The notes beneath the pieces were generated by a model. It was not told the origin of the DNA. It was given only the letters and a program-made list of their open reading frames with translations, and did no database searches. From the NCBI GenBank assembly GCA_017504435.1, contig JAFVRD010000001.1, positions 1-57,608 of the forward strand: a stretch of DNA of 57,608 nucleotides, given 5' to 3'. Shown here piece by piece: positions 40,312 through 55,070 of this stretch (position 1 is the first letter of the stretch; the number at the start of each line of letters is the position of its first letter). This DNA is from Lentisphaeria bacterium (GTDB lineage: Bacteria > Verrucomicrobiota > Lentisphaeria > Victivallales > Victivallaceae). A program made the position numbers and the translations under genes.

Positions 40312-42342
40312 TTAAGCATTATCTCCGGCGGATTCATTTTCCGCCAGAGTCAACTCTTCACCGGTACGCACCAGACGCGCACTGTTGAAAATAATTATCA
40401 AGGTACTTCCGGCATGCAATACTGCCGCCCAAATCGGGGACATCATACCGATGATCGACAGGATCATACCGCCAAAAACAAACAGCATGCCGAACAACAA
40501 ATTCTGATTGATTATCACCTGGGATTTTTTCGCCAGATAAATCAACAGGGCAATGCGGCGCAAATCATTGGTCATCAATGCTACAGAAGCACTGTTGATC
40601 GCGATGTCACTGCCGATCGCGCCCATGGCGATGCCCAAATCTCCTGCCGCAAGTGCCGGAGCATCATTCACACCGTCGCCGACGACCGCCACCCGGTTGC
40701 TCTTTTTGACATTTTCCACAAATTCAACTTTGGTTTCCGGCAGACAACCGCTTTTGAATTCATCAATATTGAGTTTGGATGCCACCTCTTCAGCAACTGA
40801 CTGCCGGTCTCCGGTGACCATGGCACAGTAGCGCACACCCAGTTTGCGCAAATCATTGAGCAATACCGGAGATTCTTTGCGGATTTTATCCCGGAATCCG
40901 ATCCAGCCCAGCAATTTCTCATCCCGGCTGACATAAACCACACTCATTCCGGCGGCTTCTTCCGGGTCGCTTTCAGGCACTTCAATGCCAAATGAACGCA
41001 TCCAATTGCCGCGGCCGACCCGCAGCAATACGCCATTGTAAGAACCCGATACGCCACGACCGTGAACTTCTGTAAAACCGGTAACATCATCTATTTCCAG
41101 TTCAGCTTCCCCGGCAAGTTTCATGATCGCCAATGCCGTCGGGTGATTGCTGAAACGTTCCACCGCCGCTGCACTGCGAAGCAATTCCGCCGGAGTAACG
41201 CCGTCATTGCCCTGCAGTTTGACTACTGAAAGCAAACCGTCTGTCAATGTACCGGTTTTGTCAAATACAAACGCCGTTATCCGGCTTGCCAATTCCAGAT
41301 GGCTGATGTTTTTGATAAAAATACCCAGCCGTGCCGCCGCTGCGACTGCAGCAACTACTGCTGTCGGAGTGGCAAGCACCACCGCACACGGACAGGCAAT
41401 GACCAGAAACGCAATAACAGAATTCATATCCCGGCTGAACCACCAGGTGATCCACGCTACCATCAATACAGTCGGAGTGTAATATCCGGCATAACGGTCT
41501 ATGATACGCACCACCGGAGTCCGGCTGGATTCTGCTTGCATGATCATATCTTTCACCTTGCCCAAAGTGGTATCTCCGCCGACTTTGGTAACCCGGACAT
41601 CCACCGCCCCGGTAAGGTTCTGGGTACCGGCAAACACATCATCTCCGGAACTTTTTTCCACCGGCACTGATTCACCGGTAATAGAGGCTTGATTGACGGT
41701 ACTTTCACCGGAAACGATGGTGCCGTCCACCGGGAAATTTTCTCCCGGACGGATTCTGATGGTGTCACCGACCGCCAGAGATGAGGCAGCAACATCACTT
41801 TCACTGCCATCGGCATTGACCCGGTGAGCTGTGTTGGGAGTCAATTTGATAAGTGCCTCGATCGAACGCTGTGCGCCGCTGGCAGTGCGGGTTTCCAGAA
41901 TGATCGTCACCAACAGGAAAAACGCAATGATACCGGCTGTCTGAAAATCTGCCTTTACCAATGCCGCCAGAATCGCCAGTGCCACCAATTCATTCATATA
42001 GACCTTGCCTTTGATCAGATCTTTGAATGCGGTGATGATGATCGGCAACGCCAGAATGAATGCCCCCAGCAATGCTGATATACTGGCAGCGAATACCTGT
42101 TCCGGCAGAAGTTTTTCCAGAATAAAACTGTTGGCAGTCAAAATACCGCCGACGAGCGCAAAACAAACTCTGCCCATTGCCCGGTCATGGCCGACTCCGC
42201 CTTCAGCTTTATGGTCATGACCGCAAATACAGGTGCTGTCCTCCTGATGGTCGTGGCCGCAGCAGCATTTCCCGTGGTCATGTTCATGGCTGTGGTCGTG
42301 ACCGCAGCAGCATTTTTCATCGTGTTTGTCACTCATGGTCAT
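40312..42342 (-). CDS. P1B-type heavy-metal ATPase with His/Cys-rich N-terminus
   Basis: A 676-aa metal-exporting ATPase. The transport motif CPC is at 317-319 (IACPCAVVLATPTA), the phosphorylation motif is DKTGTLTDG (Asp361), the actuator loop contains ITGESVPVEK, the nucleotide-binding SNHPTA is present, and GDGVNDAPAL lies near the end. Instead of the usual HMA domain (GMxCxxC) the first 52 residues hold three related patches rich in Cys and His (CCCGHDH, CCCGHDH, CICGHDH). This would bind Zn, Cu, Ni or Cd; the ion is uncertain, the CPC motif and His-rich tail resemble Zn/Cd pumps. It overlaps hflK by 4 nt. Confidence 0.92.
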   Translation of the reverse strand: MTMSDKHDEKCCCGHDHSHEHDHGKCCCGHDHQEDSTCICGHDHKAEGGVGHDRAMGRVCFALVGGILTANSFILEKLLPEQVFAASISALLGAFILALPIIITAFKDLIKGKVYMNELVALAILAALVKADFQTAGIIAFFLLVTIILETRTASGAQRSIEALIKLTPNTAHRVNADGSESDVAASSLAVGDTIRIRPGENFPVDGTIVSGESTVNQASITGESVPVEKSSGDDVFAGTQNLTGAVDVRVTKVGGDTTLGKVKDMIMQAESSRTPVVRIIDRYAGYYTPTVLMVAWITWWFSRDMNSVIAFLVIACPCAVVLATPTAVVAAVAAAARLGIFIKNISHLELASRITAFVFDKTGTLTDGLLSVVKLQGNDGVTPAELLRSAAAVERFSNHPTALAIMKLAGEAELEIDDVTGFTEVHGRGVSGSYNGVLLRVGRGNWMRSFGIEVPESDPEEAAGMSVVYVSRDEKLLGWIGFRDKIRKESPVLLNDLRKLGVRYCAMVTGDRQSVAEEVASKLNIDEFKSGCLPETKVEFVENVKKSNRVAVVGDGVNDAPALAAGDLGIAMGAIGSDIAINSASVALMTNDLRRIALLIYLAKKSQVIINQNLLFGMLFVFGGMILSIIGMMSPIWAAVLHAGSTLIIIFNSARLVRTGEELTLAENESAGDNA

Positions 42343-52757: not shown

Positions 52758-54314
52758 ATGGTAGTCCGGGATCTGGATTTTTTATTTTTTTATGAATTTT
52801 TCAAGCGCAATGCACTGATGATAGTATCAGCGGCAATTATTTTCGGAGCGGCAGGTTATCTGGCCAACCGTTATCTGATACCGAAAACCTATGCTTCGCA
52901 CGCATCAATTTTTATCGGTCGTATTGACTCTCCGAACGATATCGAAAAAACTTCCAGCAATGCCAATACGCTGCTCTACCGGGAACTTATCATCGGTACA
53001 CAGCTGAAAGAGGATTATCAGGAATTGCTTTCCCGTGACCGGATCGTAAACAATATCGAAACTGAATATCAAAAACGTTTCAATCATGAAATTCCACGTT
53101 ACAGCATCTCCGCCACAGTAACTAAAAAAGCCCGTTTTCTGGATATCGTAGTCACCGCAAAATCTCCTGAATACGCTCAAAACATTGCCCGGTGTGCCAC
53201 TGATGTTTTTGTAAAAGAGGCGATTGAACTGATCGGGATATCCAATACCAAAGTCGTGGATTATCCCAATTTACAGCCCAAACCGGTCTCTCCGCGAGTA
53301 TTCCGGAATACTGTTTTCAGTGTTGTATTCGGCATCATATTGGTGGGAGGTATACTTTTTATATTGACGATTTGCGATACCAAAATTTATTCTGTGGAGG
53401 AATTGCGGGGGATTATCGAACCGGTATTGGGCTTGATCCCGCTGGACAGTGAACTTGTCAAACAGGTCAATTCCGGTGACTCATCCAATCAAATCGTCTC
53501 CATGCGTTCCTCCGGTGAAGACCGGTCAAATATTGCCGAAAGTTTCCGTTCGATCCGTACCAATATCCAGTACAGCGACTCCAGACATAATGAACAAGGC
53601 AAAATATTCGTATTCACCAGTGCAATGCCCAATGCAGGAAAGACATTCACCAGTGCCAATATTGCGGTTTCTCTTGCCGAAGCCGGATGCAAGACCCTGA
53701 TCATAAACTGCGACTTGCACAAACCGGCACTGGGGGCTACTCTCGGTGTGGACGGAACTCATGGGGTGGTCAGCATTCTTGCCGGAGAAGTGGACTTTGA
53801 ACATGCTGTATTGCGCAACAAAATCGGTAAGCTCAATGAAAAACTGCCATTGGATATTCTGCTTTCCGGGCCGATTCCACCCAACCCGTCACGCTTGCTG
53901 CTCTCTGATGAATTTGCCACTCTGCTGACTCAATTGCGTACCCAATACGAATATATCATCATTGACGCGCCGCCGGTATTCGGAGTGACCGACGCATCTA
54001 TTCTCGGTACATTGGCAGACGGCGTCATTATTGTGTCGCGTGCCGGAAGTGACCGCAAAGAACAAATCACTTACGCATTGGAACAACTCTCTCAAGTGCA
54101 GCTTACTGTACTTGGTGCCGTTCTCAATGGCTTCCGTGCCAATGATCCGGGAAATTACGGCTATGGTTACGGCTACGGTTACGGATATGGCTATGGTTAC
54201 GGATATGGTTACGGATACGGCTACGGTTACGGATACAGTTACAGTGCCGCCGGGGAAATCAGAAAAAGACGACGTAAAAAGTTATTCAACAAGATCAAGA
54301 AATTTTTTTCCTGA
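52758..54314 (+). CDS. BY-kinase/polysaccharide co-polymerase fusion with Gly-Tyr tail
   Basis: A 518-aa protein. Residues 1-205 form a Wzz-type domain with membrane helices at about 18-38 and 186-205. The cytoplasmic bacterial tyrosine kinase domain follows: Walker A SAMPNAGKTFTSANI (288-302, Lys295), Walker A' LIINCDLHKP (Asp319) and Walker B YIIIDAPPV (near 398). The C-terminal tyrosine cluster, autophosphorylated in Wzc/CapAB, is here a (Gly-Tyr) tract with 15 Tyr (467-495), followed by SAAGE and a basic tail RKRRRKKLFNKIKK. The family controls length and export of capsule or exopolysaccharide. No polysaccharide biosynthesis gene is visible nearby. Confidence 0.92.
   Translation: MVVRDLDFLFFYEFFKRNALMIVSAAIIFGAAGYLANRYLIPKTYASHASIFIGRIDSPNDIEKTSSNANTLLYRELIIGTQLKEDYQELLSRDRIVNNIETEYQKRFNHEIPRYSISATVTKKARFLDIVVTAKSPEYAQNIARCATDVFVKEAIELIGISNTKVVDYPNLQPKPVSPRVFRNTVFSVVFGIILVGGILFILTICDTKIYSVEELRGIIEPVLGLIPLDSELVKQVNSGDSSNQIVSMRSSGEDRSNIAESFRSIRTNIQYSDSRHNEQGKIFVFTSAMPNAGKTFTSANIAVSLAEAGCKTLIINCDLHKPALGATLGVDGTHGVVSILAGEVDFEHAVLRNKIGKLNEKLPLDILLSGPIPPNPSRLLLSDEFATLLTQLRTQYEYIIIDAPPVFGVTDASILGTLADGVIIVSRAGSDRKEQITYALEQLSQVQLTVLGAVLNGFRANDPGNYGYGYGYGYGYGYGYGYGYGYGYGYGYSYSAAGEIRKRRRKKLFNKIKKFFS
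54156..54242 (+). repeat. Gly-Tyr codon repeat within the BY-kinase gene
   Basis: Twenty-nine codons alternating TAC/TAT with mostly GGN codons, giving NY, thirteen GY and SY. The third bases vary (GGC/GGT/GGA, TAC/TAT), so it is not a perfect DNA repeat but a 6-base periodic tract that can still mispair and change copy number in frame. Confidence 0.95.
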
Positions 54315-54329
54315 AACAGATAAAATATC

Positions 54330-55070
54330 ATGATAGATCTTCATGCCCATATTTTATACGGCTTTGATGATGGTGCAAAAGACCGGGACACCTGCTGCCG
54401 GATGTTGGAGTTGTATGCGGCAGGAAAAGTTGATACCGTATGTGCCTCCAGTCACAGTGCGGCAAACATCGATAACAGGTATGAAGAATATTTTGCCAGA
54501 AGTGCCGAGTTGGCAGCTTCTTTCGGGATCACCCTGCTCCCGGCACTGGAGTATGCGTTGACAGATTTGCTTGCACATCCCGATAAACATCTGGGAAATG
54601 GAAAATATTTTCTGTTGGACACTGCCAATTTCCCGGTGGACAACGCACTGATAAACAAATTGAAACCTTTGAATTCCGCGGGCAATTGTTTCCTTTGGGC
54701 TCATCCTGAACGGCTGCATATTGCCGACCCGGTAAAAACTGCCCGCAATTACGCACTGCTGCGCGGCAGTGGATGCCAGCTCAACGGAGCAAGTTTGTTG
54801 GGATTATTCGGTAAAGAAGTCAAAATTGCAGCATGGAAACTTTTAGAATCCGGTTTTTGTTCGGTAATATCTTCCGATGCGCACACCACGGACGAAGTAA
54901 ATGCATGGCTGAAAGCCAAACAGCAATTGACAGCTTTTTATCCGGATGATATGGTAAATTTCTGGTTTGACACCAACCCGCAGCGTATTATTTCCGGTCT
55001 GACCGCCGAACGCAGAGAAACGCCGACTCTCTCATTGAAAAAACGGTTTTTACGCCTTTTTCAAAACTGA
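54330..55070 (+). CDS. Protein-tyrosine phosphatase of the CpsB/CapC (PHP) family
   Basis: A 246-aa metal-dependent phosphatase. Motifs of the PHP fold: MIDLHAHILYGFDDGAKD (the first two His plus Asp), CASSHS, ALEYALTD, AHPERL and SSDAHT, with QLNGASLLGLFGK near residue 150. Members dephosphorylate the tyrosine tail of the partner kinase, here encoded 15 nt upstream, and form the reversing half of the phosphorylation switch. Function is supported by the adjacency. Its 3' end overlaps the convergent MFS gene by 10 bp. Confidence 0.92.
   Translation: MIDLHAHILYGFDDGAKDRDTCCRMLELYAAGKVDTVCASSHSAANIDNRYEEYFARSAELAASFGITLLPALEYALTDLLAHPDKHLGNGKYFLLDTANFPVDNALINKLKPLNSAGNCFLWAHPERLHIADPVKTARNYALLRGSGCQLNGASLLGLFGKEVKIAAWKLLESGFCSVISSDAHTTDEVNAWLKAKQQLTAFYPDDMVNFWFDTNPQRIISGLTAERRETPTLSLKKRFLRLFQN

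Follow-up and report, generated by a model that had tools for sequence, protein, structure and literature searches.

The window, the whole 57,608-nucleotide stretch of DNA that was analyzed, encodes a BY-kinase whose C-terminal tyrosine cluster is an almost pure Gly-Tyr (GY) tract with 15 tyrosines. This tail is real: it is an unusually long instance of a known element, in a recurrent form. We found no description of GY repeats on BY-kinases in the literature that we searched, an absence that is no proof of novelty. The BY-kinase family controls sugar-polymer synthesis. By analogy with Escherichia coli Wzc, we consider it somewhat better than an even bet (roughly 55%) that the tract would serve as an extended autophosphorylation tail, an unbroken YxY rack for sequential phosphorylation like that of the Wzc ratchet. 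The relevant features of the window are as follows.

52758 to 54314, forward strand: BY-kinase, 518 amino acids (ORF and translation; TIGR01007; Pfam AAA_31; fold matches to Wzc and CapAB)
53619 to 53645, forward strand: Walker A motif, SAMPNAGKT (alignment to E. coli K-12 Wzc around K540)
53697 to 53723, forward strand: Walker A' region, LIINCDLHK (alignment to E. coli K-12 Wzc)
53952 to 53975, forward strand: Walker B motif, YIIIDAPP (alignment to E. coli K-12 Wzc; 35 aligned sequences)
54156 to 54242, forward strand: Gly-Tyr tract of 15 Tyr, 13 Gly, and 1 Ser in 29 codons, residues 467 to 495 (direct reading and script)
54156 to 54236, forward strand: strict Y(GY)13 core of the tract, 14 Tyr, 13 hexamer units (script count)
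54246 to 54308, forward strand: predicted basic C-terminal helix, residues 497 to 517 (AlphaFold2 model; charge count)
54330 to 55070, forward strand: CpsB/CapC-type PHP tyrosine phosphatase (PF19567, 69.8 bits; cutoff, 27)

The kinase and its genomic setting

The 518-amino-acid ORF is a BY-kinase of the Wzc/CapAB kind. It scored 168.2 bits against TIGR01007 (polysaccharide biosynthesis tyrosine autokinase; cutoff, 108.05) and exceeded the cutoff for Pfam AAA_31, with Wzz falling just under its cutoff in the N-terminal part, and it gave both sequence and fold matches in the PDB to Wzc and CapAB. The AlphaFold2 model (mean pLDDT, 83) matched the kinase-domain structures of CapAB, Wzc, Etk, and BceF with target-normalized TM scores of 0.81 to 0.91. 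A short Wzz-like membrane part is fused to the kinase domain, after which come the GY tail and the basic C-terminal helix.

Two of the three nucleotide-binding motifs have their expected form. The Walker A motif contains GK[ST] as PNAGKT, with G294 and K295 invariant in the 35 aligned sequences, and the Walker B motif matches hhhhDxxP as IIIDAPP. The Walker A' region departs from the published DxDxR signature (PMC5260027): it reads NCDLH, with Asn for the first Asp and His for the Arg, and retains the second Asp (D319), which is invariant in the 35 aligned sequences. Asn at the first position is common across the family, and G, E, or H occurs there in other lineages. Judging from its sequence, an NxDxH motif may alter kinase activity, so our claim of catalytic activity is lowered; the resemblance to BY-kinases is unaffected. 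Based on the alignment to E. coli K-12 Wzc, the Wzc pocket residue Pro536 is conserved, and the pocket acid E675 aligns with Gln436, next to Glu435, with a one-position ambiguity in the sequence alignment. One clade of BY-kinase-like proteins (L009, L045, L109, and L114) ends just past the core and lacks any Tyr tail; its Walker B region is altered (DVSCHLG), and its members are possible pseudokinases.

The kinase stop codon and the phosphatase gene downstream of it are 15 bp apart, and in 25 of 31 family loci the kinase has a homologous phosphatase gene as its neighbor. We presume this phosphatase to be the cognate eraser of the kinase. A search for Wza (PF02563, Poly_export) was positive in the E. 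coli control and gave no match in the 95%-complete genome. The kinase would thus have no Wza channel to act with, and the part of the Wzc model that involves coupling to Wza cannot apply. Candidates for the Wzy polymerase are two Wzy_C proteins above the cutoff on other contigs of the genome (C42 and C11; loci L229 and L230).

The window kinase resembles E. coli Wzc (K30 and K-12; PCP-2a, with Wzb) in its fold, its Walker A and B motifs, its Tyr-rich YxY tail, and the adjacent phosphatase gene. Wzc of K30 has five phosphorylated tyrosines (PMC11986026), a large periplasmic domain, and Wza, whereas the window kinase has 15 alternating tyrosines, a short periplasmic part, a PHP-type phosphatase, Asn in Walker A', and no Wza found in its genome. 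The arrangement of a short Wzz-like modulator, a kinase, and a CpsB/CapC-family phosphatase is also that of CpsC/CpsD with CpsB in Streptococcus pneumoniae and of CapAB in Staphylococcus aureus; unlike both of these, the window kinase is a single fused chain. The title of Morona 2003, as cited in PMC4574921, gives the CpsD tail as (YGX)4. Going by that title, the two tails share Gly-containing Tyr repeats, with a period of 3 (YGX) in CpsD versus 2 (GY) here. The window tail holds 15 Tyr, compared with three in the CpsD cluster mutated in PMC4574921. Among the Bacteroidota, whose Wzc-like kinases include many relatives with pure GY tails, Porphyromonas gingivalis Ptk1 is an active, autophosphorylating BY-kinase with a C-terminal Tyr cluster (PMC4082711), in which 6 Tyr within 16 residues are autophosphorylated (PMC8863745); it is likened to the window kinase here by its published description.

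The Gly-Tyr tract

Read in frame, positions 54156 to 54242 are YGYGYGYGYGYGYGYGYGYGYGYGYGYSY. The original prediction took this tract for the tyrosine cluster of a BY-kinase, and the count of 15 Tyr in 29 codons, together with the TIGR01007 and fold matches, bears this out. The strict alternation runs through Y(GY)13, after which the 14th spacer is Ser (SY). At 29 residues, the cluster is longer than the 10 to 20 amino acids usual for BY-kinases (PMC5260027). All but one of the 15 tyrosines are preceded by a Tyr at position i-2, and the first two, Y467 and Y469, are near-invariant in the 35 aligned sequences. In the 2.26-Mb genome, all seven overlapping matches to (GY)7Y lie inside the kinase tract and the reversed control pattern has no match, indicating that the tract is not a product of chance.

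The tract is not the extreme end of the protein. It is followed by a 23-residue basic segment, and the net charge of the protein beyond Y(GY)13 is +9. The AlphaFold2 model gives residues 466 to 500 a pLDDT below 50, which predicts disorder. As modeled, the basic helix that follows could possibly bind membranes, and comparable segments come after many GY tails.

GY tails among relatives

Within the same family of organisms, 37 of 78 genomes carry the kinase, and the tails vary between YYYYYHYHYHY types and long GY runs. Of the 139 kinases compared, 128 contain YxY, and the commonest spacer is Gly, even in kinases without long tracts. We detected (GY)7Y or longer in 25 genomes from a sample of 388 from the same phylum, 24 of them at the C terminus of a BY-kinase; in the remaining genome, the pattern is a perfect (TACGGG)n repeat without a kinase. 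A sample of 395 Bacteroidota genomes yielded 37 positives, of which 36 lie on a BY-kinase and the last is a 33-residue frame formed by a perfect repeat near a contig end. GY tails recur on BY-kinases in at least two bacterial phyla, and long GY frames in these two phyla are almost confined to BY-kinase C termini.

The longest pure run among the kinases compared has 15 Tyr, and pure GY tails of 6 to 15 Tyr are common in other lineages. An expectation of four to eight irregularly spaced tyrosines thus suits E. coli Wzc and similar kinases but not the family as a whole. A tree of the 139 kinase cores shows 18 changes of the long-GY state (at least 6 Tyr), of which 11 or more fall on well-supported branches; these counts are indicative only, because the Bacteroidota kinases in the tree were mostly picked by their GY tract. 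Tract length varies between relatives, as had been anticipated: the pure run has 14 Tyr here versus 12 in a 69%-identical orthologue, and 10 of 15 species pairs with >90% core identity differ by one or two units. Poly-His or His-rich stretches come after the GY tract in the BY-kinases L007, L136, and L167.

Codon use within the tract

The description of the tract as an almost pure dipeptide repeat holds for the protein and fails for the DNA. The 13 hexamers of the window tract include no identical neighbors, and the longest perfect match at period 6 is 5 bases, with 14-base matches at periods 12, 18, and 30. The tract lacks the perfect tandem DNA units of a simple-repeat contingency locus. Across 36 tracts, 39 of 274 neighboring hexamers were identical versus 57 to 59 expected. 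When tracts were thinned to one per 80% core identity, leaving 48, identical neighbors were again rarer than expected from shuffles (70 of 363 versus 93.8; P = 0.0002), both in the Bacteroidota (P = 0.0126) and in the rest (P = 0.0058). Same-residue codon pairs outside the tracts, drawn from the longest ORFs of each locus with the gene status of each unchecked, were neutral in identity for Tyr and enriched for Gly. These control pairs show no avoidance, so the deficit is specific to the tracts. Selection against instability may explain it, or pure repeats may simply be short-lived.

Between species of one genus, the identity of Gly and Tyr codons is 0.73 to 0.92 in the kinase core versus approximately 0.35 to 0.65 for tract codons compared in register, with the residues unchanged. 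Tract codons are thus nearly randomized while the residues stay Gly and Tyr, which indicates selection on the peptide. The repeat units thus turn over, and the peptide is retained. A recent internal duplication in the window tract was considered based on an excess at lag 5 (30 bases) and was not accepted (P = 0.04 for that lag alone and 0.19 over all lags).

These data bear on the suggestion that the tract is a hypermutable contingency element in which slippage in steps of 6 bases alters the number of tyrosines between strains and so tunes kinase output. That 10 of 15 pairs of close species differ by one or two units fits such a process, as do the tracts of L123 and L134, whose codons are identical in register save for a two-unit difference at one end, and the perfect or near-perfect hexamer repeats of several Bacteroidota kinases (G512, G619, G623, and part of G454). 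In these last kinases, slippage is plausible from the DNA. At the window locus, by contrast, no adjacent hexamers are identical, and the deficit in the 48 thinned tracts, set against neutral or enriched control pairs, runs counter to it. The scrambled codons and this deficit, which holds in both kinase groups, led us to reject 6-base slippage as the simple reading of the window tract, and we regard the contingency explanation as unlikely here, though it may hold over longer time scales. At four Bacteroidota loci (L221 to L224), (TATGGC)n, (TATGGA)n, or (TATGGG)n repeats that are pure or nearly so encode the GY tails of BY-kinases, and length variation between strains is best sought there.

Proposed function of the tail

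In E. coli Wzc, the tail enters the active site of a neighboring subunit, where a Tyr at i-2 occupies a tyrosine pocket and orders the tail; YxY acts as a one-way ratchet, with phosphorylation proceeding from the C-terminal to the N-terminal end, and progressive phosphorylation loosens the octamer, so that control lies in the extent of phosphorylation (PMC11986026, PMC8285477). The Wzc ring is lost after the fourth phosphorylation (PMC11986026). With 14 of 15 tyrosines having a Tyr at i-2, the window tail forms an uninterrupted YxY rack. Each (GY)n step would be a YxY step with a small, flexible spacer, and as many as 15 equivalent positions would line up without a break along the tract, versus about four. 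Such a rack could provide a graded, many-step count ahead of ring disassembly, and the adjacent CpsB-type phosphatase would reverse the phosphorylation of the tail. For the window kinase, we infer the tail phosphorylation, the ratchet, the ring, and the controlled polysaccharide.

The BY-kinase identity, the i-2 Tyr pattern, the prevalence of YxY, the restriction of long GY frames to BY-kinases, the retention of Gly and Tyr, and the neighboring phosphatase all suggest a phosphorylation rack. Against it stand the NxDxH sequence in Walker A', the ambiguous pocket acid, the genome without a detected Wza, and a tail that the model renders as disordered; moreover, Wzc rings need four phosphates, which leaves 15 sites unaccounted for. 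The probability of roughly 55% given above takes both sets of observations into account.

Alternatively, the tract could serve chiefly to join the kinase to a basic C-terminal helix that may bind membranes, as a flexible linker or a segment that forms condensates; phosphorylation, if any, would then free the helix electrostatically. We think this quite improbable. The tail is predicted to be disordered and leads into the +9 segment with its helix, and the EcpK pseudokinase has been described as having a basic helix at its C terminus, possibly in contact with the membrane (PMC12004946). A net charge of at least +3 follows the Tyr-rich part in 45 of 66 GY kinases versus 11 of 73 others, but this association is not significant on independent tree pairs, 42 of the 66 GY kinases have no clear basic amphipathic window, and a linker has no need of Tyr at every second position. 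A causal link between the GY tail and the basic C-terminal helix was accordingly not accepted, despite the strong raw association. Neutral low-complexity expansion, in which few tyrosines are needed and the rest drifts, would account for the wide length variation among relatives with similar cores and for the at least 11 changes of the long-GY state on supported core-tree branches, but it is very unlikely given that Gly and Tyr are retained while synonymous sites turn over and that BY-kinases account for nearly all long GY frames in two phyla.

A broader form of the phosphorylation rack, which we advance tentatively and consider doubtful as a whole, is that long GY tails are a recurrently evolved device for counting ordered phosphorylations, whose length would time ring disassembly and set polymer length and whose DNA would be kept codon-scrambled by selection against repeat instability. 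Cycles of tail phosphorylation are the presumed means by which polysaccharide copolymerase kinases set chain length; the E. coli model has approximately four steps. Natural tails of 6 to 15 equivalent YxY steps form a series in which step number can be compared with ring stability and polymer length. The codon scrambling also suggests that these repetitive coding tracts are maintained, or persist, in a slippage-resistant form.

Elsewhere in the window, positions 40312 to 42342 on the reverse strand encode a P-type-ATPase-like protein with repeated N-terminal Cys/His motifs (CCCGHDH and CICGHDH) that are probably metal binding.
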